Positions 15,635-30,512 of a stretch of DNA of 64,000 nt are shown here, piece by piece (the first letter of the stretch is position 1; each line of letters begins with the position of its first letter). The position numbers and the translations under genes were made by a program. Below the pieces are notes generated by a model. That model had not been told where the DNA came from, did no database searches, and saw only the letters and a program-made list of their open reading frames with translations. The DNA is from Zobellia barbeyronii (lineage in GTDB: Bacteria; Bacteroidota; Bacteroidia; Flavobacteriales; Flavobacteriaceae). The stretch spans positions 372,001 to 436,000 of the forward strand of contig NZ_JACATN010000002.1 in the NCBI RefSeq assembly GCF_018603515.1, in the 5' to 3' direction.

Positions 15635-17128
15635 CTAATTCATAGAAACAGACTTCGTTTCCATTTTAGCTTCACGAGCTTTAGCAGCTTCCATCCATTT
15701 AGGTAATAAGTTCTCTTTGAATTCTTTCTTTTCAGCTTCTAATTTCTCTATATCCAAACCAATATACTTCTGTGCTTTTTCTTTTGAAGAAATGTCTGGC
15801 ATATCTACTGGTTTGTTATGACCTAAATCTGCTAAAAGACGGGCGAGTTTAACTCTTGCTTCCGCAGCAATATCTAAACCTCCACCAATTACTCTAGCAA
15901 TTTCTACAGGAGAGTGAAAAGATGCACCATGAGATGCCGCTGAATAATCCCAACGCCATTGTCCGTGACGAATATCTTGTAAAATTGGTTTCATTTGTTC
16001 GTCCGTTGCTCCCAACTCCCAAGCTTTACCAGCTTCTACGTGTGCTTTAACCAATAAGTCCTCTAGTTTTATACGGTTTTCCGTTGCCTTGCGCTGACGC
16101 TCGTAAACGTTTTCCATTAACTTGGCCGACTCTTCTCTGTGACATGCTTGGCAAGCATTGGCCATATTATTTAAAGGAGATTGTACATGGTGGTCTGTAA
16201 ATTTCTGTCCACCTTCACTCTTATAAGGCATGTGGCAATCTGCACAGGAAACTCCCCTATCTGCGTGTACTCCCGTTTTAAAAGTTTCGTATCCAGGATG
16301 CTGCGCTTTTAACATTGGCGTCTTACTAATCTTATGTGTCCAATCTGCAAATGCTATATCATCATAATACTTCTCCATATCCTCAACAGCCATCCCATCT
16401 TTCCAAGGGAAAACTAAATATGGTACGCCTTCTTTGCCCGGCAAGTTTTTATTGAAATAGTATTCAACGTGACACTGAGCACAAACCAATGAACGCATTT
16501 CTTGGTGCGTAGCTTGGTTAATATCTTTGCCCATAGCATCAAAAGCTTCTACCAGTGCAGGACGCGTAATCTTAAGTTTCATATTCCCTGGATCATGACA
16601 ATCTGCACAACCAATAGGGTTTACGATCTCTTCTCCTTTATCTGCCCATTTACCTTTGTAAAATTCCGTTACGCCTATTTCACTCATTAACCTTGGTACG
16701 TCAGGGCCTTTACAAGTCCAACATGTTGCTGGCATTGGTCCATCTCCTTTTCCTTTTGGCCCACCGGTTCTTAAGCTATTTCTAATATCTTCAACTGCAT
16801 ATGAATGCCCTCTACCTTGATTGTAATCTTTAGAAAAACCATAACCGGCAAAAAGCACCACTAACCTTGGGTCTTCTTCCAATACATCTCGCATGGCAGA
16901 ACCTCCTTGAAAACTAGCAAATGTAGTATCTGCCGTTTGTAACCAAGACTGGTATTCTTGGGGATAGTTGTCTCCCCAAACTTTACTCCTAGGTTCGTTT
17001 TCACCAATATTTACCTTTGGTACATACTCGTATTTTGCCTCACTTTTTCTGTTGATTATACTAGAAGCCAATAGCCCTAATAAAAAAACAGCTATAATAG
17101 TTACTACAAATAAGACCTTGTTTTTCAT
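15635..17128 (-). CDS. nrfA: Ammonia-forming cytochrome c nitrite reductase NrfA
   Basis: 497 aa pentahaem enzyme. One signal/anchor helix lies at residues 4-22. Haem motifs are CWTCK (136-140, the active-site haem with Lys as axial ligand), CADCH (174-178), CAQCH (216-220), CADCH (295-299) and CQACH (326-330). VEYYF after the third haem provides the conserved Tyr, and HHVQSP (313-318) the active-site His region. It reduces nitrite to ammonium with six electrons in the periplasm. It is 11 nt downstream of nrfH, which supplies electrons from menaquinol. Confidence 0.97.
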   Translation of the reverse strand: MKNKVLFVVTIIAVFLLGLLASSIINRKSEAKYEYVPKVNIGENEPRSKVWGDNYPQEYQSWLQTADTTFASFQGGSAMRDVLEEDPRLVVLFAGYGFSKDYNQGRGHSYAVEDIRNSLRTGGPKGKGDGPMPATCWTCKGPDVPRLMSEIGVTEFYKGKWADKGEEIVNPIGCADCHDPGNMKLKITRPALVEAFDAMGKDINQATHQEMRSLVCAQCHVEYYFNKNLPGKEGVPYLVFPWKDGMAVEDMEKYYDDIAFADWTHKISKTPMLKAQHPGYETFKTGVHADRGVSCADCHMPYKSEGGQKFTDHHVQSPLNNMANACQACHREESAKLMENVYERQRKATENRIKLEDLLVKAHVEAGKAWELGATDEQMKPILQDIRHGQWRWDYSAASHGASFHSPVEIARVIGGGLDIAAEARVKLARLLADLGHNKPVDMPDISSKEKAQKYIGLDIEKLEAEKKEFKENLLPKWMEAAKAREAKMETKSVSMN

Positions 17129-17139
17129 ATTCCTCGTCT

Positions 17140-17736
17140 TTATTTATTCTTTTCTTTTTCTAACCAAGCAGGTATTACAGCTTCTTCTTGATCGGTTGGT
17201 AATGGTGCTATATTGTATCGTAATGTAGAAATACCTTGAACTTTTCCGTGTGGAATTTCCCTATGACAACTCCAACATTGTCTATCCGTTCTATTCTCGG
17301 CATGGTTATCTATCCAACCATCATATTTAGTCTGAGTAACTTGTTGCATATGACAACGTATACAGTTTGCCTGTACCACTTTCTGAGAGGCTTCTTGCAT
17401 TTTTATGACGTCCGGCTCTGCTCTTAATGTAAATATCGTTGCATGGTACAACCCATCTTTTGCTTTGAAGAAATACTTATTCACGACGTTATCATGAGGT
17501 ACATGGCAATCGTTGCAATTAGCCCACTCTCTATGTGAACTATGCATCCAACCATTATAAACTGGAGTCATAACATGGCAATTAACACATGCCTCTGGGT
17601 TATCTGACAAATAAGAAACAACCTCTCCTTCTTTAGCCAAGAACAAGCCTATACCAATAAATACAGCAATGAGAAATACAGCCGTAGTTCTCCATCCAGA
17701 ATTTTTTTGGGGTAGTATGTTAGGGGTTTCCTTCAA
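17140..17736 (-). CDS. nrfH: Cytochrome c nitrite reductase small subunit NrfH
   Basis: 198 aa of the NapC/NrfH family. A single N-terminal membrane helix (residues 16-34) is followed by four haem motifs: CVNCH (50-54), CNDCH (74-78), CIRCH (125-129) and CWSCH (154-158), the last followed by REIPHG typical of NrfH. It oxidises menaquinol and passes electrons to NrfA. First gene of nrfH-nrfA-ccsBA. An FNR-type palindrome lies about 110-120 nt upstream. Confidence 0.95.
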   Translation of the reverse strand: MKETPNILPQKNSGWRTTAVFLIAVFIGIGLFLAKEGEVVSYLSDNPEACVNCHVMTPVYNGWMHSSHREWANCNDCHVPHDNVVNKYFFKAKDGLYHATIFTLRAEPDVIKMQEASQKVVQANCIRCHMQQVTQTKYDGWIDNHAENRTDRQCWSCHREIPHGKVQGISTLRYNIAPLPTDQEEAVIPAWLEKEKNK

Positions 17737-17844: not shown

Positions 17845-17858
17845 ATGATCAATATCAT
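17845..17858. promoter_or_regulatory. FNR-type palindrome upstream of nrfHA
   Basis: ATGATCAATATCAT has the CRP/FNR core TGAT-N4-ATCA (17846-17857). It lies between the divergent nrfH and the small gene at 17919. On the nrfH side a near -7 element (ATTTTTTG, minus strand, G at 17811) lies 40.5 bases from the box centre. Confidence 0.65.
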
Positions 17859-17918
17859 ATTTTTTACCATAAAATAATCAGAAAACACCTACTGATAATA
17901 AACTTTAAATTGCCTACA

Positions 17919-18398
17919 ATGCTCAAAAAAAGAAATATCTTGCATGGTATGGGAATATTTGACTTTAGAGATCCGAGCAAAAGAAAAAAAAAGAGTGATA
18001 CGGTTACTATAGAATGTAATGCTAAGGAGATATTTCTTAATAATACGCTCATTAGTTTCCCTACTAACTACACAGTTCTAAAAAATCTATTTGGAGAGGC
18101 ATCACGTATTGAGCCTATTAAGCAAACAAAAAATAACGTGTATTTATGGGATGACCTTGGTATCTATTGTTCTACACCCGATCCTGAGAAAATGTTAATG
18201 CTCCTTTTGGTAGAAGACAACAGATACGGCCTAGGTCACCAACCCTTGAAAAATTTTACTGGAGATGTCATTATAGACGGTAAACCTATGCAAGAAACGA
18301 TTCAGAGCGTAGATACGGACAGACCTTATATGATACGGTCTATTATAAAGGAGAAAAAACAAGTAGCCATTGCACTTGGATGGAATCCCGGTGTTTGA
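17919..18398 (+). CDS. Small cytoplasmic protein of unknown function
   Basis: About 160 aa from ATG 17919; the frame also opens with TTG at 17910, and an ATG at 17949 (MGIFDF) is an equally good start. No signal peptide or membrane segment. The body (YTVLKNLFGEASRIE, YLWDDLGIYCSTPDP, and a run ending GWNPGV) resembles uncharacterised bacterial proteins of about 150 aa that I cannot assign a role. It lies between nrfH and the porin gene on the plus strand and shares the FNR-box region with nrfH, but a link to nitrite metabolism is only positional. Confidence 0.7.
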   Translation: MLKKRNILHGMGIFDFRDPSKRKKKSDTVTIECNAKEIFLNNTLISFPTNYTVLKNLFGEASRIEPIKQTKNNVYLWDDLGIYCSTPDPEKMLMLLLVEDNRYGLGHQPLKNFTGDVIIDGKPMQETIQSVDTDRPYMIRSIIKEKKQVAIALGWNPGV

Positions 18399-18414
18399 CG
18401 TCCATCTTTTATAG

Positions 18415-18428
18415 ATGATAAATGTCAT
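18415..18428 (+). promoter_or_regulatory. FNR-type palindrome upstream of porin gene
   Basis: ATGATAAATGTCAT is the exact reverse complement of the box upstream of napD (24034-24047); the identity extends to 16 bases on the left flank. Its centre (18421.5) is 36.5 bases from the last base of AATCTTTG (18451-18458), a -7-like element, which is the same spacing as at nap. Confidence 0.7.
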
Positions 18429-18450
18429 GTTTATTGAGGTTTAAATAGCG

Positions 18451-18458
18451 AATCTTTG
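18451..18458 (+). promoter_or_regulatory. Probable -7 element of porin gene
   Basis: AATCTTTG differs from the Bacteroidota consensus TAnnTTTG at one position. It is 27 nt before the ATG at 18485 and has no good TTG -33 partner, as expected for an activator-dependent promoter. Confidence 0.45.
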
Positions 18459-18484
18459 TTGCCAAATGTAATAAATCAACTATT

Positions 18485-19777
18485 ATGACCATACAAAGAC
18501 TTCAGGTAGGTATCCTATTTTTACTTATTTTCAACTTTATTCCAATAACAGCACAAACGCTGGAAGTAGATGCAGATGTAAGAGCTCGCTTTGAATATCG
18601 CCACGGATTTAATAACCTTTTTCCTAATGATGCCGATCCTGCAGCATTCGTAAACCAACGTACCCGTCTTAATATTGGGTATTCCGATGAAAAACTAAAA
18701 CTATTTATTGCCGTACAAGATGTAAGTACCTGGGGAGATACCCGCCAAATATTAGCGGTAGACGGTAACGATTCTTTCTCTTTGTTTCAAGCTTGGGCAC
18801 AATTACAATTCAATGAAAATTGGTCTACCAAGTTAGGTAGACAAGTAATTTCTTATGATGATCAACGTATTTTTGGTGGTTTAGATTGGGCAATGCAGGG
18901 GCGTTTTCATGATGCTGCCATCATAAGCTATAAGAAGGATGATTTTATGCTTGACTTAGGTGGAGCGTTTAGCCAAGAAGCACCAAGTAATGAAGGAACT
19001 GCTTATAATATTCAAGGTTTTTTTACGTATAAATCCATGCAGTATGCCTACCTCAAGAAATCTTGGGAAAAAAGTTCTGTGAGCTTTCTTTTTCTAAACA
19101 CAGGTTTTCAAGATTTTACGGGTGATGCCAATGATATTGCAGATGGCGTTTCCTATAGACAGACTACGGGTTCTTATTTTAAATTCCCAGTACAAAAAGT
19201 GAATTTTGCCGGTAGTGCCTACTATCAATTTGGGAAAGCGAATGCTACAACAGATTTAGCTGCTTATCAATTGGCTTTAGAGGCTACTTATAAATCTAAT
19301 AAAATTCTTTACGGATTAGGTGTTGAACTTTTAAGCGGAACTGATCAAGACGGTGACTCTAAAAACAAATCGTTCTTTCCTCTTTACGGCACCAATCATA
19401 AGTTTAATGGATTCATGGATTATTTTTATGTAGGCAACCATGCTAACAATGTTGGACTTAATGATGTATACGGGAAAATTGTATTTACTACAGGTGAAAA
19501 ATCTAACCTATTGTTAAAAGGACATTACTTTAGCGCCAATGCAGACCTTACCGGAGATGCAGATGCTTACCTAGGAACGGAATTAGATTTAGTATATACA
19601 CAAGCTCTAATGAAGAATGTAAAACTAAATGTAGGGTATTCGCATATGTTTGCTTCGGATAGTATGAGTCTTATAAAAGGTGGCAGACCAAGTGATAATA
19701 CCAACAACTGGGGATGGGTTCAACTAACAATCAACCCTAATCTTTTTAAAACAAATTTGAGTAAAGCAGCAAATTAA
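18485..19777 (+). CDS. Outer-membrane beta-barrel porin, alginate-export family
   Basis: 430 aa with a signal peptide cleaved near ITAQ (residue 24), then alternating amphipathic strands to the end. Motifs such as DVRARFEYRHGF, QRTRLNIGY, LGRQVISYDDQRIFGGLDWAMQGR belong to the AlgE/alginate-export barrel family, often found beside respiratory genes in Bacteroidota. The name does not imply alginate. With an FNR-type box identical to that of nap and a position between nrf and moa genes, I infer a general or anion porin admitting nitrate or nitrite. A strong terminator follows. Confidence 0.8.
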   Translation: MTIQRLQVGILFLLIFNFIPITAQTLEVDADVRARFEYRHGFNNLFPNDADPAAFVNQRTRLNIGYSDEKLKLFIAVQDVSTWGDTRQILAVDGNDSFSLFQAWAQLQFNENWSTKLGRQVISYDDQRIFGGLDWAMQGRFHDAAIISYKKDDFMLDLGGAFSQEAPSNEGTAYNIQGFFTYKSMQYAYLKKSWEKSSVSFLFLNTGFQDFTGDANDIADGVSYRQTTGSYFKFPVQKVNFAGSAYYQFGKANATTDLAAYQLALEATYKSNKILYGLGVELLSGTDQDGDSKNKSFFPLYGTNHKFNGFMDYFYVGNHANNVGLNDVYGKIVFTTGEKSNLLLKGHYFSANADLTGDADAYLGTELDLVYTQALMKNVKLNVGYSHMFASDSMSLIKGGRPSDNTNNWGWVQLTINPNLFKTNLSKAAN

Positions 19778-19800
19778 GAATACAACTACCTCAACATAGT

Positions 19801-19835
19801 AAAGCTGCAATCTTTTGGATTGCAGCTTTTTTTTT
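19801..19835 (+). terminator. Strong intrinsic terminator after porin gene
   Basis: AAAGCTGCAATC (19801-19812) pairs perfectly with GATTGCAGCTTT (19818-19829) around a 5-nt loop, followed by T residues to 19835. The run abuts the end of the converging moaA gene. Confidence 0.9.
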
Positions 19836-20838
19836 ATCCACCTATAGCAATCATACTCCGGTTGTTATGAGAATCAGGGTCTTTAAATTTTTCTAGCGTA
19901 TCCATTCCGCTACGTACTTTTTGCTTTGCTTGTACGGCTTTCCCAATTACTGTAGTTATTGATTTTCCTTCACGAAGCGGCGTAAGTAAATCAGATTCTG
20001 TGGTTGAGAATAAGCAGTTCTTAAGTTGCCCGTTTGCCGTTAAGCGCACTCTATTACAACTATCACAAAAAGGATTGGTTACAGAGCTTATAACAGCAAA
20101 AGTCCCCTTATAACCTTTTATTTGATAGTTTTTGGCCGTATCATTAGGCGCGTCGTCAAGTCTTATAAAACTGCTTGCATCATACTTGGCATATACTTGT
20201 TTCAATACTTCCTCGAGCGAAACCAGTTTTTCCAAATCCCATTTATTACCATCAAAAGGCATAAACTCAATAAAACGAATCTGCAACGCCTGCGTCTTGG
20301 TAAGCTCTATAAAATCGATAATCTCATTTTCATTAAACCCTTTTATTAAAACACAGTTTATCTTCACCTCAAAACCCTCTTTTACCAACAATTGTATGTT
20401 GTCATAGACCTTTTTGAAATAGTCCCTACGGGTTATAAAAGTATTTTTATCGGTGTTCAAAGAATCTAGGCTCACATTAATTTTCTTAAGACCTATTTTC
20501 TTAAACGTATCAATGAACTTATCTACGATAACTCCATTGGTGGTTATGGCCAATTCAATAGGAAGTGAAGCCAATTTCTCCATAATTAAAGCGGCATCCT
20601 TTCGTACTAATGGCTCGCCACCTGTAAGCCTTATTTTAGTGACTCCGTGGTCCACAAACTCTTTTGCTATGGCGTAGATTTCCTCATACGTCATAATATG
20701 AGATTTTGGTGAAAGCGAAATACCAGCTGCAGGCATGCAATACGTACAACGTAAATTACAACGCTCCGTAAGTGAGATGCGCAAGTAGGTATGTTTTCTA
20801 CCAAATGTGTCCGTAAGGATATTTTTAGATTCCGTCAT
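19834..20838 (-). CDS. moaA: GTP 3',8-cyclase MoaA
   Basis: 334 aa radical SAM enzyme. The N-terminal CNLRCTYC (Cys27, Cys31, Cys34) binds the SAM [4Fe-4S] cluster. The C-terminal cluster region has CDSCNRVRLTANGQLKNCLF. The chain ends in the double glycine (AIGG) needed for activity. It catalyses the first step of molybdenum cofactor synthesis with MoaC. Last gene of moeA-modE-moaE-moaCB-moaA, starting 1 nt after the stop of moaCB. Molybdopterin serves NapA upstream in the window. Confidence 0.96.
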   Translation of the reverse strand: MTESKNILTDTFGRKHTYLRISLTERCNLRCTYCMPAAGISLSPKSHIMTYEEIYAIAKEFVDHGVTKIRLTGGEPLVRKDAALIMEKLASLPIELAITTNGVIVDKFIDTFKKIGLKKINVSLDSLNTDKNTFITRRDYFKKVYDNIQLLVKEGFEVKINCVLIKGFNENEIIDFIELTKTQALQIRFIEFMPFDGNKWDLEKLVSLEEVLKQVYAKYDASSFIRLDDAPNDTAKNYQIKGYKGTFAVISSVTNPFCDSCNRVRLTANGQLKNCLFSTTESDLLTPLREGKSITTVIGKAVQAKQKVRSGMDTLEKFKDPDSHNNRSMIAIGG

Positions 20839-20839
20839 A

Positions 20840-21751
20840 TTAATCGTGTCTTGCTCCTTTTAAAATTCTAAAAACATGTAAAATGGATGGAAAAATAGCA
20901 TCCATAGATTCTTTTGCGCCATTTGTAGAGCCAGGCAAGGCCAACACCATAGTGTTTTTTATGGTTCCCGCCATACTTCTAGAAAGCATAGCATAAGGCA
21001 TGCGGTCCTGTCCGTATTTTCTAATAGCTTCTTCTATACCAGGAATAGTTCTATCCAATAATGGTTTTAGAGCCTCTGGTGTAATATCGCGCTGAGATAG
21101 CCCTGTTCCTCCTGTATAAATTATTAAGTCCGCTCCGTTGGCTTGATAGTGTTTGGCCTTTTCTTGAATGATAGCTTCATCATCGGGAATGATAATATAA
21201 TCTTGAAGCGTAACTTCGCATTCTTTTAATTTTGCCATAACGGCTTTACCAGCTCTGTCTTCTTTTTTCCCTTCTGAAATGGAATCAGAACATACGATAA
21301 CAACAGCATTTAAATCGCGTCTAAACTTATCCTTAAAACTAGACTTCCCTCCTTTTTTCTCTATCAGCTTAATATGATGTAATTCTATGCCCTTATCTAT
21401 AGGCTTAAGCATATCATACATATTAAGAGCTACCACACTTGCCCCATGCATAGCCTCTACCTCAACACCAGTTTTATAAATGGTCTTTACGGTTACTAAT
21501 ACTTTAATTTCAAGTCCATCTATCTCATATTCAATACCTGTGAATTCTATGGGTAATGGATGGCAGTCCGGAAGTAAATCCGGTGTTTTCTTAACCCCCA
21601 GAAGTCCAGCTGCTTTACTCATGGCAAAAACATCACCCTTGGGTACGGTTCTATTCTGGATAGCATCAATGGTTTCCTGACGGCTGACTTTTACAATTGT
21701 CTGAGCTGTTGCCGTTCTAAGAGTATTACTTTTATGTGTAATGTCTACCAT
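20840..21751 (-). CDS. moaCB: Bifunctional cyclic pyranopterin monophosphate synthase / MoaB (MoaCB)
   Basis: 303 aa. Residues 1-150 are MoaC (KTPDLLPDCHPLPI, GVEVEAMHGASVVALNMYDM), which completes cyclic pyranopterin formation after MoaA. Residues 155-303 are MoaB/MogA-like (VVIVCSDSISEGKKEDRAG, IYTGGTGLSQRDITPEAL), the adenylylation domain. This MoaC-MoaB fusion is known in Bacteroidota. It starts 6 nt after moaE. Confidence 0.95.
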   Translation of the reverse strand: MVDITHKSNTLRTATAQTIVKVSRQETIDAIQNRTVPKGDVFAMSKAAGLLGVKKTPDLLPDCHPLPIEFTGIEYEIDGLEIKVLVTVKTIYKTGVEVEAMHGASVVALNMYDMLKPIDKGIELHHIKLIEKKGGKSSFKDKFRRDLNAVVIVCSDSISEGKKEDRAGKAVMAKLKECEVTLQDYIIIPDDEAIIQEKAKHYQANGADLIIYTGGTGLSQRDITPEALKPLLDRTIPGIEEAIRKYGQDRMPYAMLSRSMAGTIKNTMVLALPGSTNGAKESMDAIFPSILHVFRILKGARHD

Positions 21752-21757
21752 ATACGG

Positions 21758-22198
21758 CTAGCTATTTACTTTCCATTGCGAAGATTCATCCTCAAAAATT
21801 TCCTTCCCAAAAACAGGTACATCTGCCTTAATGGCTTCCACCACGTATTCCAATGCCTTAAACACTTCTTTTCGCCTTGGGGATGACACAAAAACGAATA
21901 GACATATCTCCCCGGATTTTACCTCTCCCAAACTATGGTAGATATGCATACAGGTAAGATTGAATTTTTCAAAAGTAGCTTCCCTTATATCATGGAATTT
22001 CTTATTTGCCATGTCTTCATATGCGGTATACTCAATTGCAGCAACTTTTTTATCGTCTACAACATCTGCCCGTACTTGGCCTAGAAAAATATTATGTGCA
22101 CCAATGCTGGTTTTAGATTGATGCTTGGCAATAGACTCCGCTATAAATGTTGAAGAAATTGCTCCTGGTTTAAATACGTTTTTATAAGTAGTGCTCAT
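21758..22198 (-). CDS. moaE: Molybdopterin synthase catalytic subunit MoaE
   Basis: 146 aa. Typical motifs are FLGQVRADV, AIEYTAYEDMA, HSLGEVKSGE, VFVSSPRRKEVFKALEY and the catalytic-lysine region PVFGKEIFEDES. It transfers sulfur from thiocarboxylated MoaD to cyclic pyranopterin. No moaD or moeB is visible in this cluster, so the small subunit must be encoded elsewhere. Confidence 0.94.
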   Translation of the reverse strand: MSTTYKNVFKPGAISSTFIAESIAKHQSKTSIGAHNIFLGQVRADVVDDKKVAAIEYTAYEDMANKKFHDIREATFEKFNLTCMHIYHSLGEVKSGEICLFVFVSSPRRKEVFKALEYVVEAIKADVPVFGKEIFEDESSQWKVNS

Positions 22199-22234
22199 TT
22201 TCTAATCCTATTTTCTTTACTATAAATTGATGGT

Positions 22235-22277
22235 GTTATTTCTATTGACCTTATAGGTCTTTTGCTATAGAAATAAC
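22235..22277 (-). promoter_or_regulatory. Nested inverted repeats between modE-like gene and moaE
   Basis: GTTATTTCTAT (22235-22245) is exactly complementary to ATAGAAATAAC (22267-22277), and the interval holds a second hairpin GACC-TTATA-GGTC (22247-22259). No T-run follows on the minus strand, so it is not a plain terminator. It may be an operator for the adjacent ModE-like protein, an RNA processing site or an mRNA structure ahead of moaE. Confidence 0.5.
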
Positions 22278-22292
22278 TTTGATTCGTTTTTC

Positions 22293-22634
22293 TTAAATTC
22301 CGTTTAGGGTTTCAAACTCTTCGTCCAGAAACTCCCAACACTTTTTATTAATTCGTTCAAAAGCGGCTATTAAGTTTTTTCCATAGGGTGTAATAACCGT
22401 TCCTCCTCCTTTTTGACCGCCAACAGATGTAGTCACTACCGCTTCTTTGGCAGATTTATTAACGGCATCTATTAACGTCCATGCTTTCTTATATGACATT
22501 CCAATAGACTTCGCTGCTTTTGACAATGAGCCTTGTGCTTCAATTTCTTTTAGCAACTTCACTCTACCTTCACCTACCAGAACGTTATCCCCTACTTCTA
22601 TCCAAATCCTACTTTTAATTTTATAATCGCTCAT
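22293..22634 (-). CDS. ModE-like winged-helix regulator
   Basis: 113 aa, the size of the ModE DNA-binding domain alone. The helix-turn-helix LSKAAKSIGMSYKKAWTLID (residues 34-53) and following TSVGGQKGGGTVITPYGKNL are characteristic. It lacks the C-terminal molybdate-binding MOP domains of E. coli ModE, so it cannot sense molybdate the same way. Located between moeA (10 nt) and moaE, it probably controls the cofactor operon. Confidence 0.88.
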   Translation of the reverse strand: MSDYKIKSRIWIEVGDNVLVGEGRVKLLKEIEAQGSLSKAAKSIGMSYKKAWTLIDAVNKSAKEAVVTTSVGGQKGGGTVITPYGKNLIAAFERINKKCWEFLDEEFETLNGI

Positions 22635-22644
22635 AATACATAGT

Positions 22645-23826
22645 CTATTTAGTGGGTAGCAATATGGTTTTTACGTTTTGGCCTTTTTTAATTTCCGCTG
22701 AGTTTCTAGGCAAACAGACCAGAGCATTGGCATCTCCAAAAGCCCGCACCATAGCAGAACTCTGTCCTCCTAAAATAGTCACTCCTGCACCTTCTATCCG
22801 TGCTTTGAGAAATTGTGCTTGAGTTCCTTTTACCGTGTAATCAAATAATAAAGGCAAAGAAATAGCTGGAAGGTTCATATGCTCCGCTCCTTCGTACTTC
22901 TTTAAAAGGGGATACACATAGATATAAAAACAACTAAGCGCAGCGGCAGGGTTTCCGGGAAGTCCAAATATTGATGTTCCTTCCTTCTTTCCAAAAAACA
23001 AAGGTTTCCCCGGTTTTTGCTTCACCTTATAGAAAATCTCTTGTACGCCAATGGCATTTATTGCTTTTCCAACAAAATCATAATCCCCTACAGATACTCC
23101 GCCTGTAACAATAACTACATCATGTTTCCCTAGGGTATCTTTTAATACTTTTTTTGTTTTATCGTAATCGTCCTTTATAGTAACAACAGAGGTATTCTTG
23201 TAACCCAATTCTTTAAGCACAGCGGTTAGCATAGCGCCATTAGATTCGTATATCTCTCCATAAGACAATTTATCTCCAGGACTTACAAGTTCGTTACCTG
23301 TTACTACTATAGCTATTGACGGCTTTTCACAGACCGTAATTTTCGTAACTCCCAAACTGGCCAGAAATCCTATATGAACTCCCTTAATTGTTGTCCCTTT
23401 GTTTATAGCAACACCGCCTACTTTTATTTGCTCTCCTTGGAGCCTAATATTTGTATTCTCCTTTGGAGATTCTTCTATGCTTATTTTATTCCCATCTACG
23501 GTGACTTTTTCTTGCATCACAACCGTATTTGCCGTAACGGGCACCGGAGCTCCTGTAAAAATTCGAACAGCTTCGCCTTTATGTAAAGTGGGATTGTTAT
23601 TGTCACCTGCTTTTACTTCCCCGACCATGCTATAAGTAACATCGTCCCCTATATGTAATGCATAACCATCCATAGCAGACTGCCTAAATGGAGGCATATC
23701 TATTTCTGAAATTACATCTTTGGCCAGAACATAATCTAGTCCATCTTTAAGGTCAACCTCAAGCACTTTTGTGCTCATAGAACCATGTAATAAAACCAAT
23801 TCTAACGCTGTAGTAGTATCTATCAT
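22645..23826 (-). CDS. moeA: Molybdopterin molybdenumtransferase MoeA
   Basis: 393 aa. Motifs seen in order: PPFRQSAMDGYAL, IFTGAPVP, IVVTGNELVSPG, VIVTGGVSVGDYDFV, KPLFFGKKEGTSIFGLPGNP and a C-terminal domain ending CLPRNSAEIKKGQNV. It inserts molybdate into adenylylated molybdopterin. First gene of the minus-strand cofactor operon, divergent from napD across a 314-nt region that holds an FNR-type box. Confidence 0.96.
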   Translation of the reverse strand: MIDTTTALELVLLHGSMSTKVLEVDLKDGLDYVLAKDVISEIDMPPFRQSAMDGYALHIGDDVTYSMVGEVKAGDNNNPTLHKGEAVRIFTGAPVPVTANTVVMQEKVTVDGNKISIEESPKENTNIRLQGEQIKVGGVAINKGTTIKGVHIGFLASLGVTKITVCEKPSIAIVVTGNELVSPGDKLSYGEIYESNGAMLTAVLKELGYKNTSVVTIKDDYDKTKKVLKDTLGKHDVVIVTGGVSVGDYDFVGKAINAIGVQEIFYKVKQKPGKPLFFGKKEGTSIFGLPGNPAAALSCFYIYVYPLLKKYEGAEHMNLPAISLPLLFDYTVKGTQAQFLKARIEGAGVTILGGQSSAMVRAFGDANALVCLPRNSAEIKKGQNVKTILLPTK

Positions 23827-24033
23827 TATCCGTGCGTTGTGTTAGTTTTTAAACTAGTGTCGGGCATTTGAAAAAGGTGTTTTCACATACAGCATCCATC
23901 ATAATCCCATGGTATTGTTTTAATAATCACTCCTAAATTCCCCTTTCAGAAAATTTACTATTTCCTAACAGGGGATGAATATACAAAATCGTTATTTCCG
24001 TTCAAATATAACGATAGCTTTATTATTCATTCT

Positions 24034-24047
24034 ATGACATTTATCAT
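24034..24047 (+). promoter_or_regulatory. FNR-type palindrome upstream of napD
   Basis: ATGACATTTATCAT (ATGA-N6-TCAT), identical in reverse complement to the box at 18415-18428. Centre 24040.5, 36.5 bases before the last base of the -7 element, which places it near -41.5, where CRP/FNR-family class II activators bind. Confidence 0.7.
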
Positions 24048-24069
24048 CTTTTCAAGAACAATACTCACC

Positions 24070-24077
24070 TATTTTTG
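24070..24077 (+). promoter_or_regulatory. -7 element of nap operon
   Basis: TATTTTTG matches TAnnTTTG exactly. No TTG is present at the -33 position; the activator box occupies that place instead. It lies 63 nt before the napD start. Confidence 0.6.
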
Positions 24078-24140: not shown

Positions 24141-24374
24141 ATGCCTATTAAAAGCTACCTAGCTCACCCTATTACAGGAAGAAAAGAAGAATTAATGACC
24201 GCATTAATCAGTCTTGGTCAATGTGAAGTTATTCCTGCCGAGAACCAAAACATTTTGGCATTGGTTACCGATACCCAAACCGAAAAAGAAGACGAAATTC
24301 TAAAAGAAAAAATTGAAGCCCTAAGCAGTCTAAAATTACTGGCCTTAGTTTCTGGCTTTAACACCCCTCAATAA
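24141..24374 (+). CDS. napD: NapA maturation chaperone NapD
   Basis: 77 aa, small alpha/beta protein: SYLAHPITGRKEELMTALISLGQCEVIPAENQ resembles the NapD ferredoxin-like fold, which binds the NapA Tat signal peptide and holds the precursor until the cofactor is inserted. It is the first gene of the nap operon, 11 nt ahead of napA. Identification relies on size, pattern and neighbour. Confidence 0.85.
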   Translation: MPIKSYLAHPITGRKEELMTALISLGQCEVIPAENQNILALVTDTQTEKEDEILKEKIEALSSLKLLALVSGFNTPQ

Positions 24375-24385
24375 TTTATATAGCT

Positions 24386-26713
24386 ATGTACGATTCTGTA
24401 ACAAATAGAAGGAGTTTTATAAAAAAGATGGCCATGTTGTCTGCAATTACGGCAGCTGCGTCTATGTTCCCCGGTATTGTGTTTGCCAGCGAGCAAGAAA
24501 AAGGAATTCCTGAAAATGCGAACCTAGATTGGAAAAAAGGTCCGTGTAGATTCTGCGGCGTAGGTTGTGGTATACTTGTAGGTACTGAAAACGGAAAAGC
24601 TGTAGCTGTAAAAGGGGATCCAAACTCTTCTGTAAACAAAGGGTTGTTATGTGTAAAAGGATATCACCAAATTATGTGTATCCAATCTAAGGATAGACTT
24701 AAAACGGCCTTAGTAAAGAAAAACGGTAAATACGTAGAAACCCCATTAAGTGAAGCTTTAGACCTTGTTGCTTCTAAAATGAAAGAAAGCATTGCCCAAA
24801 ACGGTAAAGATTCTGTGGCCATGTATACTTCCGGGCAGTCTACAATACCAGAAGGCTATATTGCTTCTAAATTAATGAAAGGAGCTATAGGTACCAATAA
24901 CCTAGATTGTAATGCACGCCTTTGTATGGCAAGTGCCGTAACAGGATTCTTAACCTCTTTTGGAGCGGATGAGCCCATGGGTTGCTATGAAGATATTGAT
25001 CACGCAGATTACTTTGTTACTTGGGGAAACAATATGGCAGAAATGCACCCGGTTCTATTCTCAAGAATGCTAGAACAAAAAGCAAAACGTGGTGCTAAAA
25101 TCATAGATTTTGCCACACGAACTACACGTTCAAGTACAGCTTCTGACAAATCAATCTTATTTGAACCTCAAACGGATTTAGCGGTAGCAAATGCTATTTG
25201 TTATGAGATTATACAAAACGGGTGGGTGAACAAATCCTTTGTTGAAAAGCACTGTAGCTTTAGTAAAGGCCTTACCAATATTGGCTATGGTCTAGAAGAC
25301 AAGTTTAAGTTTACGGATAAGCCGGAGAAAATAGATTTTGAGGCGTATAAAGTATTCCTAGAAGATTACAGTCCAGAAAAAGTGGCTAAGTATTCTAAGG
25401 TTTCCGTTAAGGATATTAAATACCTAGCAGCAATTTACGGGGACCCAAATAAAAAAGTAGTGTCTTATTGGTGTATGGGAATGAACCAACACACCAGAGG
25501 AACATGGATAAACAACCTTGTTTACAATATTCATTTACTTACCGGTAAAATATCGCAACCGGGCAACGGTCCTTTTTCATTAACAGGTCAGCCTTCTGCT
25601 TGTGGTACCGCACGTGAAGTGGGAACTTTTACACACAAATTACCACACGGGGTTGTAATGAATGAGAAAGATAGAGAAATGGCCGCTAAAATCTGGAAGG
25701 TTCCGGTGGACCGTATTCCTTCTAAGCCTACCTATCATGCCACTGAAATGTTTCGCGCAGTAGACCGTGGCGATATTAATTTTATATGGGTACAGGCCAC
25801 CAATCCTTTAGTTTCTTTGCCTAAGACCAGTCGTTACCGTCCAGCAATGGAAAAGAAATCTTGTTTTGTTGTGGTTTCGGATGTATTCCCTACACCTACT
25901 ACGGATGTAGCAGATGTTATTCTTCCAGCTGCTTGGCATATTGAGAAAGGTGGACTCTATGGTAATTCTGAGCGAAGAACGCAGTATTGGCAAAAAATGG
26001 TTGATGCACCTGGAGAGGCAACAGCAGATACTTGGATGTTTATTGAAGTAGCAAGACGAATGGGATTTGAAGATCTATTCCCTTACAGCAAAGAAAATCA
26101 CGTAGAAGAAATATACAACGAATACAGACAATTTCACGAAGGTGCAAAACACGGAATGGCACCACTAGAAGTCTTAAAGAAAGAGTCCGGAGCTATCTGG
26201 CCTTATGTAAATGGCAAGTCTACGCAATGGCGATACAATGCCAAATATGACCCTGCCTGTTCAAATGATGAAGACTTTCATTTTTACGGGAAACCAGATG
26301 GTAGAGCCGTAATCTGGCAACGTCCGTTTGAAGATGCCCCAGAGAAACCAGACCAAGAATACCCATTCTGGCTAAACACAGGTCGTGTTGTAGAACATTG
26401 GCATACAGGGTCTATGACTCGTAGAATTCCAGTACTACATCAAGCTATGCCAAATGCTTATGTAGAGTTTCACCCAGATGATGCAAAGTCTTTAGGAATT
26501 AGAAACGGAGAAAATATTAAAGTAACCTCTCGCCGAGGTTCTTGTACATTACCGGCATCCATCAACGAAAGAGGTCTGCCTACAAAAGGGCAAGTGTTTG
26601 TTCCTTTCTTTGATGAGAACATGCTCATTAACGATGTAACCTTAGACTCCTTCTGCCCTATTTCTAAAGAACCAGATTATAAAAAATGTGCGGTTAAAGT
26701 TGAAAGAGCATAA
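24386..26713 (+). CDS. napA: Periplasmic nitrate reductase catalytic subunit NapA
   Basis: 775 aa. A Tat signal (NRRSFIKKM, residues 8-15) is followed by a hydrophobic stretch ending VFA. The [4Fe-4S] cluster is bound by Cys54, Cys57, Cys61 and Cys89 (CRFCGVGC, LLCVKG). NLDCNARLCMASAV supplies the molybdenum ligand Cys180. Other molybdopterin-binding motifs (WGNNMAEMHP, MGMNQHTRGTW, GQPSACGTAREVG, NTGRVVEHWHTGSMTRR) match NapA rather than assimilatory NasA. It reduces nitrate to nitrite in the periplasm. A full nap operon follows with 3 nt to the next gene. Confidence 0.96.
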   Translation: MYDSVTNRRSFIKKMAMLSAITAAASMFPGIVFASEQEKGIPENANLDWKKGPCRFCGVGCGILVGTENGKAVAVKGDPNSSVNKGLLCVKGYHQIMCIQSKDRLKTALVKKNGKYVETPLSEALDLVASKMKESIAQNGKDSVAMYTSGQSTIPEGYIASKLMKGAIGTNNLDCNARLCMASAVTGFLTSFGADEPMGCYEDIDHADYFVTWGNNMAEMHPVLFSRMLEQKAKRGAKIIDFATRTTRSSTASDKSILFEPQTDLAVANAICYEIIQNGWVNKSFVEKHCSFSKGLTNIGYGLEDKFKFTDKPEKIDFEAYKVFLEDYSPEKVAKYSKVSVKDIKYLAAIYGDPNKKVVSYWCMGMNQHTRGTWINNLVYNIHLLTGKISQPGNGPFSLTGQPSACGTAREVGTFTHKLPHGVVMNEKDREMAAKIWKVPVDRIPSKPTYHATEMFRAVDRGDINFIWVQATNPLVSLPKTSRYRPAMEKKSCFVVVSDVFPTPTTDVADVILPAAWHIEKGGLYGNSERRTQYWQKMVDAPGEATADTWMFIEVARRMGFEDLFPYSKENHVEEIYNEYRQFHEGAKHGMAPLEVLKKESGAIWPYVNGKSTQWRYNAKYDPACSNDEDFHFYGKPDGRAVIWQRPFEDAPEKPDQEYPFWLNTGRVVEHWHTGSMTRRIPVLHQAMPNAYVEFHPDDAKSLGIRNGENIKVTSRRGSCTLPASINERGLPTKGQVFVPFFDENMLINDVTLDSFCPISKEPDYKKCAVKVERA

Positions 26714-26716
26714 ACT

Positions 26717-27439
26717 ATGAAAAAGAGACTTGGAATCATATCGTTTTTTGTAGTAATCTTCATAGCGTTTATCGTTGTTTGGAACTACAGCTATGAACAG
26801 GGTTTGGAAGAAGCCTATACACCTGTTATTGAAACGCCTACCGGAAACTTTATTCCATCGGAAAGTGGCGCTTTTAGACGATTTGATGATGCAGGTGCAG
26901 GTTTAGATTATCTAAATATGCCTGTAGATGAAAACCACCAACGAACGCTAGATACGTATTATGATAATAGAGCCTATCCAGGAGCACCACCAAGTATTCC
27001 GCACCCTGTAGCAAAAGAGCGCAGCTTTGGAGGCAATACATGTATACAGTGTCACCAGAACGGTGGCTTTGTAGCAAAGTTCAATGCCTATGCCCCTGTT
27101 ACGCCACATCCAGAAATGGTAAACTGCAGACAGTGCCACGTTACTAAAAACACCACTAGCGACTTTAAGGAAAACGGATTTGTAAAACCGGAGCCGCCAA
27201 AAGTAGGTGAAGGTGCAAATAATGCATTGGTAGGAAGCCCTCCAATGATACCGCATCAATTACAAATGAGAGAAAGTTGTATTTCCTGTCACGGAGGACC
27301 AAGTGCGCCTAAAGAGATTAGAGTTTCACATCCGGACCGTATTAATTGTAGACAATGCCATTTACCAAAACATAGTGAGCAATCAACTGTTGATACGAAT
27401 ACATTTCTAAGACAATTCGATAAACTAAATGAAAAATAG
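26717..27439 (+). CDS. napB: NapB-like cytochrome with duplicated haem module (four haems)
   Basis: 240 aa with an N-terminal membrane anchor or signal (residues 5-22). NapB normally has two CXXCH motifs; here there are four: CIQCH (109-113), CRQCH (137-141), CISCH (188-192) and CRQCH (211-215). They fall into two similar units, each with PPxIPH, then CxxCH, then a His-Pro or His segment and NCRQCH (units about 91-142 and 175-216). The second unit is closest to canonical NapB. It should carry electrons to NapA. It overlaps the next gene by 11 nt. Confidence 0.88.
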   Translation: MKKRLGIISFFVVIFIAFIVVWNYSYEQGLEEAYTPVIETPTGNFIPSESGAFRRFDDAGAGLDYLNMPVDENHQRTLDTYYDNRAYPGAPPSIPHPVAKERSFGGNTCIQCHQNGGFVAKFNAYAPVTPHPEMVNCRQCHVTKNTTSDFKENGFVKPEPPKVGEGANNALVGSPPMIPHQLQMRESCISCHGGPSAPKEIRVSHPDRINCRQCHLPKHSEQSTVDTNTFLRQFDKLNEK

Positions 27440-28058
27440 AACGCTAATATATTCCGTAGTAGTACTTCTAGGGGTATCCTTATTCTCTTGTAAAGGCGAA
27501 GAAGAGTACCATTCCATATCCGACAAAATAGAAGGGGAAAGTAAACCATATCATGGCGCACTAACCTCCGAACAATTATTAGCGGATACGGAGTTAATTG
27601 AAATTACGGAAGGAGAACATACATTCCTTATTCCAGAACGAAAGGGACAAATAAAATCATTTGCCTGTATAGAGTGCCATAGCAAACCTGTCTCGCAAAT
27701 GATTGGTAAAGATGCGCCAAAAGCACACTGGGATATTAAAGTGAATCATGCCAATAGTGATGCTATGAACTGTGCTACCTGTCACAACGGAGAGGACATG
27801 AACCAGCTGAATACATTAACAGGAAAAAACATAGATTTCAATTTAAGCTACAAACTATGTTCGCAATGCCACTCTAGTCAATTTGAAGATTGGAAAGGTG
27901 GTGCTCACGGTAAAAAAGTAGCAGGATGGGCTCCTCCACGAGCATCCAACACCTGTGTAAATTGTCATAATCCACACAGTCCAAGTTTTGAAAAAAGATG
28001 GCCGGTACAGTTCAATACAAAAACGGCAATAGAACGTAACGAAGGTTTAGGTCATTAA
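27429..28058 (+). CDS. Tetrahaem cytochrome c lipoprotein of nap operon
   Basis: 209 aa. A lipobox (LFSC, Cys21) predicts a membrane-anchored periplasmic lipoprotein. Haem sites are CIECH (80-84), CATCH (115-119), CSQCH (144-148) and CVNCH (176-180), with GGAH and NPHSP segments offering distal His ligands. It is not NapC (no transmembrane anchor of that type, different spacing). In this operon it probably passes electrons from the ferredoxin-type subunit to NapB. I do not know a named family. Confidence 0.82.
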   Translation: MKNRTLIYSVVVLLGVSLFSCKGEEEYHSISDKIEGESKPYHGALTSEQLLADTELIEITEGEHTFLIPERKGQIKSFACIECHSKPVSQMIGKDAPKAHWDIKVNHANSDAMNCATCHNGEDMNQLNTLTGKNIDFNLSYKLCSQCHSSQFEDWKGGAHGKKVAGWAPPRASNTCVNCHNPHSPSFEKRWPVQFNTKTAIERNEGLGH

Positions 28059-28068
28059 AAATAAAGGT

Positions 28069-29205
28069 ATGAGCGATAATAAAAAATGGTACTCTCTAGA
28101 CCTAGGTCTAAACAATAAAAAAGAATCTTCGGGTTCTTGTGGTTGCGGTAAATCTGAAGGAAGCTGCAGTAGCACTCCTAAGGAACAAGTAGAAGAAGAA
28201 TTAAGTCCAGAAGAATTTTACGAGGCTGCCATTAATGCATCTATTGGTGAAGAAAGGCACCGCGATGGTTTTGAGCAGGTTTTTGATGTGAAAATGGACA
28301 GAAGAAGCGCCTTTAAAAAGCTAACAGCTAGCCTATTAATTGGTGCAGGTGCAGTAACTACTTCATGTAGTGTAACCACCGGAAGCGATACCAAAGAAAA
28401 AGCTCAGATAGATTGGGAAGAGCAGTTTAAAGGAAACTATAAACTAATGACCGATGAAGAGAAACAGGGCACTATAAATAGACTTATGCGTTCGTATGAA
28501 TTAAGAACGGATAAGAAAATAAACATGACCGCAGAAAATGCGGCAGAAGACGTGCTCTTTGGTTATGCTTTTAATATATCCAAATGTCAAGGGTATATGA
28601 ATTGTGTAAATGCCTGTGTTGAGGAGAACAACCAAGACCGAAATTCCGAAATGCAATACATCCGTATTCACGAGATGAAAGATGGTGAAGGTTTTAAGTT
28701 TGATAAAGCGGATGATAACTATTACCACGAGGTACCTGCGGAAGGTCATTTCTATATGGGAACACAATGTTTTCATTGTGACAACCCTCCTTGTGTTGAG
28801 GTTTGCCCCGTACAGGCTACTTGGAAAGAGGAAGACGGACTTGTGGTTATAGATTATGACTGGTGCGTTGGCTGCCGTTATTGTATGGCCGCTTGCCCTT
28901 ACGATGGTAGACGTTTTAATTGGAGCAAACCTGAAGTTCCTGAACCAGAAGTAAATAAAAATCAACATTACTTAGGGAACAGAATGCGTAAAAAAGGCGT
29001 CATGGAAAAATGTACTTTCTGTGTGCAACGTACGCGTAAAGGAAAAAACCCGGCCTGTGTAGAAGCATGTCCTACCGGAGCTAGAATTTTCGGTAATCTA
29101 TTAGATCCCAATAGCACCATAAGATGGGTACTAGAAAACAAGAAAGTATTTAGACTAAAAGAAGATTTAGGCACAGAACCCAAGTTCTGGTACTTCATGG
29201 ACTAA
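28069..29205 (+). CDS. Ferredoxin-type iron-sulfur subunit, extended Tat lipoprotein (HybA/NrfC-like)
   Basis: 378 aa. A 75-residue N-terminal extension with CGCG and SCSS (Cys24, Cys26, Cys33) precedes a Tat motif (MDRRSAFKKL, Arg78-Arg79) and a short hydrophobic stretch ending in TTSC (Cys100), so it is probably exported folded and lipidated. The ferredoxin region has four cluster sites: Cys173-x5-Cys179-x3-Cys183, then 234/237/242/246, 266/269/272/276 and 315/318/330/334. The first site lacks one Cys: CQGYMNC replaces the usual CxxCxxC. It should shuttle electrons from the HybB-like quinol oxidase to the haem proteins. Confidence 0.87.
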   Translation: MSDNKKWYSLDLGLNNKKESSGSCGCGKSEGSCSSTPKEQVEEELSPEEFYEAAINASIGEERHRDGFEQVFDVKMDRRSAFKKLTASLLIGAGAVTTSCSVTTGSDTKEKAQIDWEEQFKGNYKLMTDEEKQGTINRLMRSYELRTDKKINMTAENAAEDVLFGYAFNISKCQGYMNCVNACVEENNQDRNSEMQYIRIHEMKDGEGFKFDKADDNYYHEVPAEGHFYMGTQCFHCDNPPCVEVCPVQATWKEEDGLVVIDYDWCVGCRYCMAACPYDGRRFNWSKPEVPEPEVNKNQHYLGNRMRKKGVMEKCTFCVQRTRKGKNPACVEACPTGARIFGNLLDPNSTIRWVLENKKVFRLKEDLGTEPKFWYFMD

Positions 29206-29285
29206 AAACGTCATAAAAGAAAGCACTGAATCGTAACGCTCAGAATATCAAAAATTCTTAGCCAGCAGATTTAAAACAATATACA

Positions 29286-30512
29286 ATGGGAGCATTTAAA
29301 GTATTTAAAAGTTTGGTGGTCGATAGTTTAGATACCATAACCAAGGGGTCTAAAACGTATCACCTTTGGATGGGGTTTCTTACCCTTGTAATGCTAATTG
29401 GCATGTATTGTTATTCCATTCAATTAGAAGAAGGGCTTAGCGCTACGGGAATGTCCGACCGTGTTAGCTGGGGACTATATATTTCTAATTTTACTTTTTT
29501 AGTCGGAGTTGCCGCGGCTGCCGTAATGTTGGTAATGCCTACCTACGTTCTAAAAGATATTGATTTTAAGCAGGCCGTATTAATCGGAGAAGGACTGGCC
29601 GTAGCGGCTTTAATAATGTGTTTGGCCTTTGTAGTTGCCGATATGGGCGGACCATCCGTGTTATGGCATATGATTCCTGGAATAGGGGTTTTTAACTTCC
29701 CGAACTCCATGCTGACTTGGGATGTTATTGTATTAAACGGATACCTTTTTATTAATATTAGTATTCCGTTTTATATTCTCTTTAAGCACTATCAGAATAA
29801 AGAAGCTAAGAAAAGTGTCTATGTACCGGGTGCAATTATATCCGTATTTTGGGCCGTAGGTATTCACTTGGTTACTGCCTTTTTATACCAAGGTCTGCAA
29901 GCACGGCCTTTTTGGAACAATGCATTGTTAGGGCCTCGTTTCTTGGCATCGGCATTTGCAGCGGGACCTTCACTTATTATTTTGGTTTTAGCCGTCATAC
30001 GTTCTTTTACAGCATTTAAGATAGAAGATAAAACAATCAAAAAAATAGCCATGATTGTAACGGTAGCTGCTCAGATAAATTTAATCATGCTGGTCTCGGA
30101 ATTATTCAAGGAATTTTATGCCCCTACACACCATAGTGAAAGTGCGTATTACCTTTTCTTTGGCCTACATGGTAAAAATGCATTACTACCGTGGATCTGG
30201 ACTGCTATTCCTCTAAACGTTCTTGCAACAGTGATACTCACGTTCAATAAGTTTAGAAATAACCTGAAAGTATTGTACGTCTGCTGCTTTATGCTATTTG
30301 TAGCTATATGGATAGAAAAGGGGTTTGGCTTAATCGTTCCGGGCTTCATTCCCGGACCTTACGGTAAAATAGTAGAATATCTACCCACTGGCGTAGAGAT
30401 TGGAGTTACGATTGGTATTTGGGCAATGGGCGCCTTTGTATTTACCATTCTTGCCAAAACCGCTATTGGTATTGAGCTGGGAGAGCTACGGTATAAAGAT
30501 AAAAAGGCTTAA
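29286..30512 (+). CDS. NrfD/HybB-like quinol-oxidising membrane subunit
   Basis: 408 aa with about ten membrane helices, longer than short NrfD/PsrC proteins and close to HybB in size. Segments like FNFPNSMLTWDVIVLNGYLFIN, HLVTAFLYQGLQARPFW and PTHHSESAYYLFFG are typical of the NrfD superfamily and carry the quinone-site polar residues. These subunits exchange electrons between menaquinol and a ferredoxin-type partner, here the preceding gene. I infer it replaces NapC as the quinol oxidase for NapA. It is the last gene of the nap operon, before a hairpin. Confidence 0.9.
   Translation: MGAFKVFKSLVVDSLDTITKGSKTYHLWMGFLTLVMLIGMYCYSIQLEEGLSATGMSDRVSWGLYISNFTFLVGVAAAAVMLVMPTYVLKDIDFKQAVLIGEGLAVAALIMCLAFVVADMGGPSVLWHMIPGIGVFNFPNSMLTWDVIVLNGYLFINISIPFYILFKHYQNKEAKKSVYVPGAIISVFWAVGIHLVTAFLYQGLQARPFWNNALLGPRFLASAFAAGPSLIILVLAVIRSFTAFKIEDKTIKKIAMIVTVAAQINLIMLVSELFKEFYAPTHHSESAYYLFFGLHGKNALLPWIWTAIPLNVLATVILTFNKFRNNLKVLYVCCFMLFVAIWIEKGFGLIVPGFIPGPYGKIVEYLPTGVEIGVTIGIWAMGAFVFTILAKTAIGIELGELRYKDKKA

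Follow-up and report, generated by a model that had tools for sequence, protein, structure and literature searches.

Do the FNR-type boxes that lie beside nitrate-respiration genes in Zobellia barbeyronii mark promoters of one activated design, and if so, which protein would read them? The stretch in question, hereafter the window, comprises 64,000 nucleotides of contig NZ_JACATN010000002.1 (positions 372,001 to 436,000). A reading made from the sequence alone had reported three such boxes, near nrfH, before a porin gene and before napD, with the box centre at the last two exactly 36.5 bases from the last base of a -7 element. We found all three boxes at the positions and with the letters claimed. 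The nap box ATGACATTTATCAT and the porin box ATGATAAATGTCAT are exact reverse complements of each other, and the 36.5-base spacing holds at both promoters (18421.5 to 18458 and 24040.5 to 24077). The porin -7 element carries one mismatch to TAnnTTTG. The features of these two promoters, including open reading frames (ORFs), are as follows.

18415 to 18428, no strand: FNR-like box ATGATAAATGTCAT of the porin promoter, centre 18421.5
18451 to 18458, plus strand: -7 element AATCTTTG of the porin promoter, last base 18458, 36.5 from the box centre
18485 to 19777, plus strand: porin-like outer-membrane gene (Pfam Alginate_exp PF13372, E 5e-13)
24034 to 24047, no strand: FNR-like box ATGACATTTATCAT of the nap promoter and of a candidate divergent moeA promoter, centre 24040.5
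24070 to 24077, plus strand: -7 element TATTTTTG of the nap promoter, last base 24077, 36.5 from the box centre
24141 to 24374, plus strand: napD-like ORF of 77 amino acids, named by position and size (no Pfam match at 1e-5)
24386 to 26713, plus strand: napA, periplasmic nitrate reductase catalytic subunit (NCBIfam PRK13532, 953 bits, cut-off 904)

The evidence lies in the combination of box and -7 element, because the box alone scarcely exceeds its control: genome-wide, ATGAN6TCAT occurs at 154 places and the reversed pattern at 134, and we dropped the box by itself as evidence. The genome (G000, 4.98 Mb), whose NapA is 97% identical to the NapA of two Zobellia species, was searched at 31 spacings for the box before NANNTTTG. 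The sequence-only reading had proposed such a search, with many random hits at other spacings as the outcome that would speak against it. Instead there was a strong peak at the reported spacing, which held 12 of the 36 composites with ATGAN6TCAT (any other spacing at most 3) and 31 of the 64 with TGAYN4RTCA (any other at most 4). With the 31 spacings assumed equal, the binomial p values are about 8e-10 and 4e-29; the reversed-pattern controls gave 18 and 32 composites with all spacings pooled. When the -7 element ended in TTTA, the reported spacing held 16 of 88 composites and any other at most 6. Two of those 16, without the usual flanking bases, appear to be chance pairings. Among 32 aligned sites, the first T of the -7 element, which was free in the search, was T in 26, TGA was preceded by A or C in 30, and TCA was followed by T in 25. 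This alignment includes a doubtful site, C22:669109, which is among the 12 composites and not among the 31; it lies inside a 952-amino-acid ORF, reads TGAA-N4-TTCA, and was rejected as a candidate.

Within the window, ATGAN6TCAT occurs six times against 1.5 expected, a count reached in 0 of 100 shuffles, and the three copies other than the reported boxes fall within ORFs. A position-weight scan scored the porin and nap sites at 30.3 and 28.5, whereas 30 resampled windows had a maximum of 18.2 and a mean of maxima of 10.3; the scan is partly circular, as both sites had served to train it. The 31 sites had leave-one-out scores of 16.9 to 33.4, with three under 18.2.

The spacing is also kept in other genomes. 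In the best 80 of 553 NapA loci from other genomes (1.65 Mb; 79 with 600 bases of upstream DNA), 98 of 161 composites had the exact spacing, 21 were one base longer and 7 one base shorter. Two scrambled boxes in the same loci gave none at the exact spacing out of 18 and 21. The two Zobellia loci carry a similar composite approximately 4.1 kb ahead of napA, and 53 of the 79 loci have a box within 600 bases upstream of napA. We then scanned 296 Bacteroidota genomes for the exact pattern with TANNTTTG, excluding this genome and its sister from the family count and leaving 223 genomes outside the class out of the totals. The 28 family genomes held 244 exact-spacing sites against 12.5 per control spacing (125 over ten), and every one of the 28 carried at least one site. 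The corresponding counts were 24 against 6.9 in six genomes from another family of the order and 112 against 12.1 in 37 others from the class. The observation is thus confirmed as real, with a geometry that is conserved and far beyond chance. Outside the class, one genome (G271) has 28 exact-spacing sites and a regulator 40% identical to the one discussed below.

A box centred at -41.5 is in the class II position familiar from E. coli FNR and CRP. In a start-site map of Flavobacterium psychrophilum, TAnnTTTG occupies -12 to -5 (PMC9723704); because the element ends at -5 and the box centre sits 36.5 bases upstream, starts placed by this map would put the centre at -41.5. FNR is described as using class II sites in PMC12531629, whose authors also argue that class II contacts are variable and that AR1 was acquired within the Gammaproteobacteria. 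The -7 elements follow the TAnnTTTG form of the Bacteroidota primary sigma, and the TTTA form is likewise enriched at the exact spacing. Together, the one-base-exact spacing in this genome, the 80 loci and the 28 family genomes and the published -12 to -5 placement strongly support the earlier proposal of a class II layout on a Bacteroidota-type promoter. The likeness to E. coli FNR and CRP class II promoters covers the palindromic TGA-N6-TCA box, the equal calculated distance to the start, an activator of the Crp/Fnr family, and anaerobic and microaerobic targets. The differences are that TAnnTTTR at -12 to -5 takes the place of the -10 TATAAT and that the spacing is strict to one base.

A gene start lies behind 26 of the 31 sites by script (one is 391 bases off and one is a 65-amino-acid ORF), and inspection added three. 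Among the targets are the genes of a Crp/Fnr regulator and of a ccoI-type ATPase, which share one box, as well as napD, the porin gene, hemN and genes for a cytochrome c, a PAS histidine kinase, a ferritin-like protein, two Usp proteins and a flavin mononucleotide (FMN) oxidoreductase. Behind the TTTA sites are ccoS-ccoNO-ccoP and genes encoding, among others, a di-haem peroxidase and four Usp proteins. Nitrate respiration thus looks like one branch of a regulon for low oxygen and stress, whose targets may not all answer to one factor. The name given earlier, a nitrate-respiration regulon, rightly takes in nap and the porin but is too narrow, since the same composite stands before ccoI, ccoSNOP, hemN, a cytochrome and Usp genes. 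As in the low-oxygen regulons of FixK, ANR and FnrL near cbb3 genes, the regulator gene lies beside ccoI and the box precedes cco, hemN and Usp genes, although the phylum, the promoter type and the box are different. Crp/Fnr homologues of a Flavobacteriales genome have been proposed to sense carbon, in a study that reports no evidence that Crp/Fnr factors regulate denitrification in its organisms (PMC8510549).

Of the 14 PF00027 matches in the genome, the likely factor at the window sites is a protein of 229 amino acids (G000:C32:597152-597838, minus strand), the regulator whose gene adjoins the ccoI-type gene. It has a cNMP-binding-like domain (PF00027, 1e-18) and a Crp-type helix-turn-helix domain (PF13545, 2e-13), and FNR structures match it at 1e-22. 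Cysteines C5, C8, C54 and C107 are kept in 30 of 30, as are T191, E192, I195 and R196 of the recognition helix (T-E-x-x-I-R). C5, C8 and C107 align with C20, C23 and C122 of FNR, and C54 may be the fourth ligand. A box stands upstream of the gene in all 26 family orthologues, this genome included, with a -7 element within 35.5 to 37.5 bases in 24 and at exactly 36.5 in 18. Like the FNR [4Fe-4S] sensor, the protein has Crp/Fnr domains, an N-terminal CxxC, a cysteine at the C122 position and the E and R of the helix, and the targets here likewise include cco, hemN and nap; it differs in having N for C29, the extra conserved C54, and a box with A or C rather than T before TGA. The helix and box of FNR (E209, S212 and R213; TTGATN4ATCAA) are not matched here: I replaces S212.

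Two other candidate regulators were set aside. The Crp/Fnr protein at C11:770342 has FNR-like cysteines but was passed over because its neighbours, read by eye from ORFs, look like nitrate-transporter and siroheme genes. With its CxxCx4C N-terminus and its place among nitrate-assimilation-like genes, this protein (G000:C11:770300-771056) is a possible iron-sulphur regulator in its own right. HcpR, suggested earlier as a binder, is a Crp/Fnr-family regulator of the nitrogen-oxide response in Bacteroidota (Bacteroides and Porphyromonas), but the HcpR2 motif of Bacteroides and others, GTAACnnnnGTTAC, with hcp as target (PMC1274295), does not fit the TGAYN4RTCA boxes found here. HcpR also differs in its haem-based sensing, as described in PMC12750200 and PMC13370916. 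The annotated targets do not include hcp, although no search aimed at hcp was made.

Our preferred explanation, to which we give a probability of roughly 0.8, is that the porin and nap promoters are class II promoters activated at -41.5 by an FNR-like homodimer, most likely the 229-amino-acid protein, in response to low oxygen. The boxes, their exact and conserved spacing, the gene contents, the surroundings of the regulator gene and the conserved residues of its product are observed directly; binding, activation, start sites and signal are what we infer from them. The homodimer would bind the palindrome (A/C)TGAY-N4-RTCA(T/G) centred at -41.5 and touch RNA polymerase, whose Bacteroidota primary sigma would sit on TAnnTTTR at -12 to -5, and this contact would substitute for the -33 element. 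Low oxygen is the most likely signal in view of the targets: the cbb3 oxidase, a cytochrome, stress proteins, haem synthesis that needs no oxygen, and nitrate reduction together with its cofactor genes. Self-regulation is possible in this genome and its sister; it would not be general, because in most orthologues the -7 element faces the neighbouring gene.

Several findings weigh against this explanation. The -7 element faces the regulator gene in only 3 of the 26 orthologues (at 36.5 in this genome and its sister, at 37.5 in a third) and otherwise the neighbour, which was identified as ccoI-type in this genome only. The best structure match, 2gau (4e-25), is a Crp/Fnr protein not named FNR; the score against NCBIfam Fnr PRK11161 is 104 bits, where the cut-off is 228; and the cysteine at FNR C29 is absent, with N14 in its place, so that the four ligand cysteines of FNR are not all present. 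Four of the 28 family genomes have only weak relatives of the regulator yet carry 3 to 9 sites. Two of the 31 sites have no gene start found behind them, the 600 bases before napA lack a box in 26 of the 79 NapA loci, and the nrfH box of the window does not fit the 36.5-base geometry.

The nrfH box calls for an account of its own. The features there are these.

17845 to 17858, no strand: box ATGATCAATATCAT upstream of nrfH, with no -7 element at 36.5 on either side
17140 to 17736, minus strand: nrfH-like NapC/NirT cytochrome (PF03264, E 3e-13)
15635 to 17128, minus strand: nrfA, ammonia-forming nitrite reductase (PRK11125, 678.7 bits, cut-off 595)

ATGATCAATATCAT is a good palindrome, and the claim of a third promoter stands for the box but not for the promoter: we rejected nrfH as a class II promoter in the window, and likewise the plus direction toward a DUF7738 gene. 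We regard the box as probably a genuine relic, or else as a member whose spacing has shifted. More specifically, it may be a class II site whose -7 element was displaced by four bases, or one that decayed after the gain of nrfHA or the growth of a T run; we consider this account somewhat likelier to be wrong than right. On the nrfH side the sole TTTG found, ATTTTTTG, follows a run of eight T, and its end is 40.5 bases away from the box centre. Among eight relatives with nrfH near nap, seven have the box and six an exact-distance -7 element (two TTTG, four TTTA). The two Zobellia NapA loci (L058 and L059) yielded no NrfH. Displacement, however, would centre the box at -45.5, on a different helix face than -41.5. 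As a separate observation, nrfHA (15635 to 17736) adjoins the porin gene and may have been gained here or lost in L058 and L059.

A second Crp-type protein could act at the window sites in place of the FNR-like one. This protein joins a receiver domain to a Crp-type half (G000:C31:369675-370739); its gene follows a PAS histidine kinase gene that has a box in its promoter, and the recognition helix of the fusion has the same T-E-x-x-I-R residues. The gene has nine of the 31 sites within 20 kb. In 15 class genomes, such a gene lies this close to 17 of 53 listed sites, against 0.52 expected, and this is seen in 10 of the 15; these are the genomes with listed sites among 25 with the fusion, the other ten comprising four without sites and six with unlisted sites. 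The fusion is present in each of the four family genomes that lack a close FNR-like protein. Its action at the porin and nap promoters is nevertheless improbable. Both boxes have A after TGAY, as do 79 of 98 sites in the NapA loci of relatives and 15 of 21 sites elsewhere in this genome, compared with 2 of 24 sites on the fusion's contig, C31 (Fisher p 1.4e-5; 45 of 48 sites used, with C22:669109, C22:5220 and C35:95294 dropped as doubtful). Furthermore, half of the 28 family genomes have no match to the fusion at 1e-60, yet keep 2 to 17 sites.

The fusion may use the same geometry in a stress island. Here 24 of the 45 exact-spacing sites fall on C31, around the fusion and the PAS histidine kinase, and the island (G000:C31:213000-378000; L138 to L143 and L191) holds Usp, ferritin-like, YtxH, cation-ATPase and efflux genes. 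It is tempting to propose two parallel low-oxygen regulons in the Flavobacteriaceae on one rigid class II design, with -41.5 in common and the inner bases keeping them apart: the FNR-like protein, with its relocated fourth cysteine C54, would read TGAYA..TRTCA for respiration, and the fusion, driven by the PAS kinase, TGAYY..RRTCA in the stress island. We would put this at just under even odds. Because the C31 sites share a neighbourhood, the split in inner bases is treated as hypothetical.

That the dimer represses rather than activates, blocking polymerase from -48 to -35, is an unlikely reading in which the fixed spacing would reflect a fixed promoter. The box covers or abuts the would-be -33 region, and Crp/Fnr proteins are able to repress. 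Repressors, however, usually tolerate several positions, and the constancy here is to one base across genomes; the target genes would also be expected to be active when oxygen is low. A TTG at -36 to -31, which would make the promoter strong enough to repress, occurs at just 2 of the 31 sites. It was found at 1 of 47 relative sites and at 10 of 84 box-less candidate promoters. The missing -33 TTG noted in the sequence-only reading is therefore true but not diagnostic, being rare without the box too, and we set it aside as too weak to serve as support; according to PMC7366714, no -33 motif was identifiable in Flavobacterium johnsoniae.

A chance meeting of a short AT-rich palindrome with a common -7-like octamer would suit the near parity of box and reversed control and a spacing present at just two window promoters, but with almost half of the composites at one of 31 spacings, a nearly twentyfold excess in the 28 family genomes and no scrambled box at the exact distance, this explanation is already refuted and its probability negligible.

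The class II reading of the nap box may extend to the gene on its other side.

24003 to 24010, minus strand: candidate -7 element TATATTTG toward moeA, 37.5 from the centre of the nap box
22645 to 23826, minus strand: moeA-type molybdenum cofactor gene, first of the divergent cluster (NCBIfam PRK10680, 330 bits, below the cut-off of 440)

The nap box thus lies between divergent genes, 36.5 bases from the nap -7 element and 37.5 from TATATTTG. Across the 79 NapA loci, NANNTTTR on the nap side stood at 36.5 in 32 and at 35.5 in 7, and the opposite side had it at 37.5 in 20 loci and at 36.5 in 10. TATATTTG at 37.5 on the opposite side of a box near napA was seen at 20 other loci, and some loci have a separate box for each side; the opposite gene was identified as moeA in the window only. 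One box may serve both promoters, and nitrate reductase and molybdenum cofactor genes are probably switched together.

In Bacteroidota the primary sigma factor and the -7 element are not of the E. coli type, and we found little in the literature on how activators are placed there. We recognised no report of a Crp/Fnr box at a fixed distance from TAnnTTTG in Bacteroidota in the coverage available, which leaves subscription journals mostly outside. If the class II reading is true, the -41.5 contact survives a changed promoter, a regulator is named, nitrate reductase is tied to molybdenum cofactor genes through one shared box, and a rule is at hand for finding low-oxygen regulons throughout a large family of marine and soil bacteria. 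The findings point to a shared low-oxygen switch for nitrate respiration, a high-affinity oxidase and stress genes.

Two minor observations concern the surroundings of nap. The nap cluster (24386 to 30512) contains electron-transfer genes resembling those of DsrO/DsrP-type proteins and multihaem cytochromes. Close to it, positions 31955 to 33718 encode a protein with a GmrSD restriction-endonuclease N-terminal domain.

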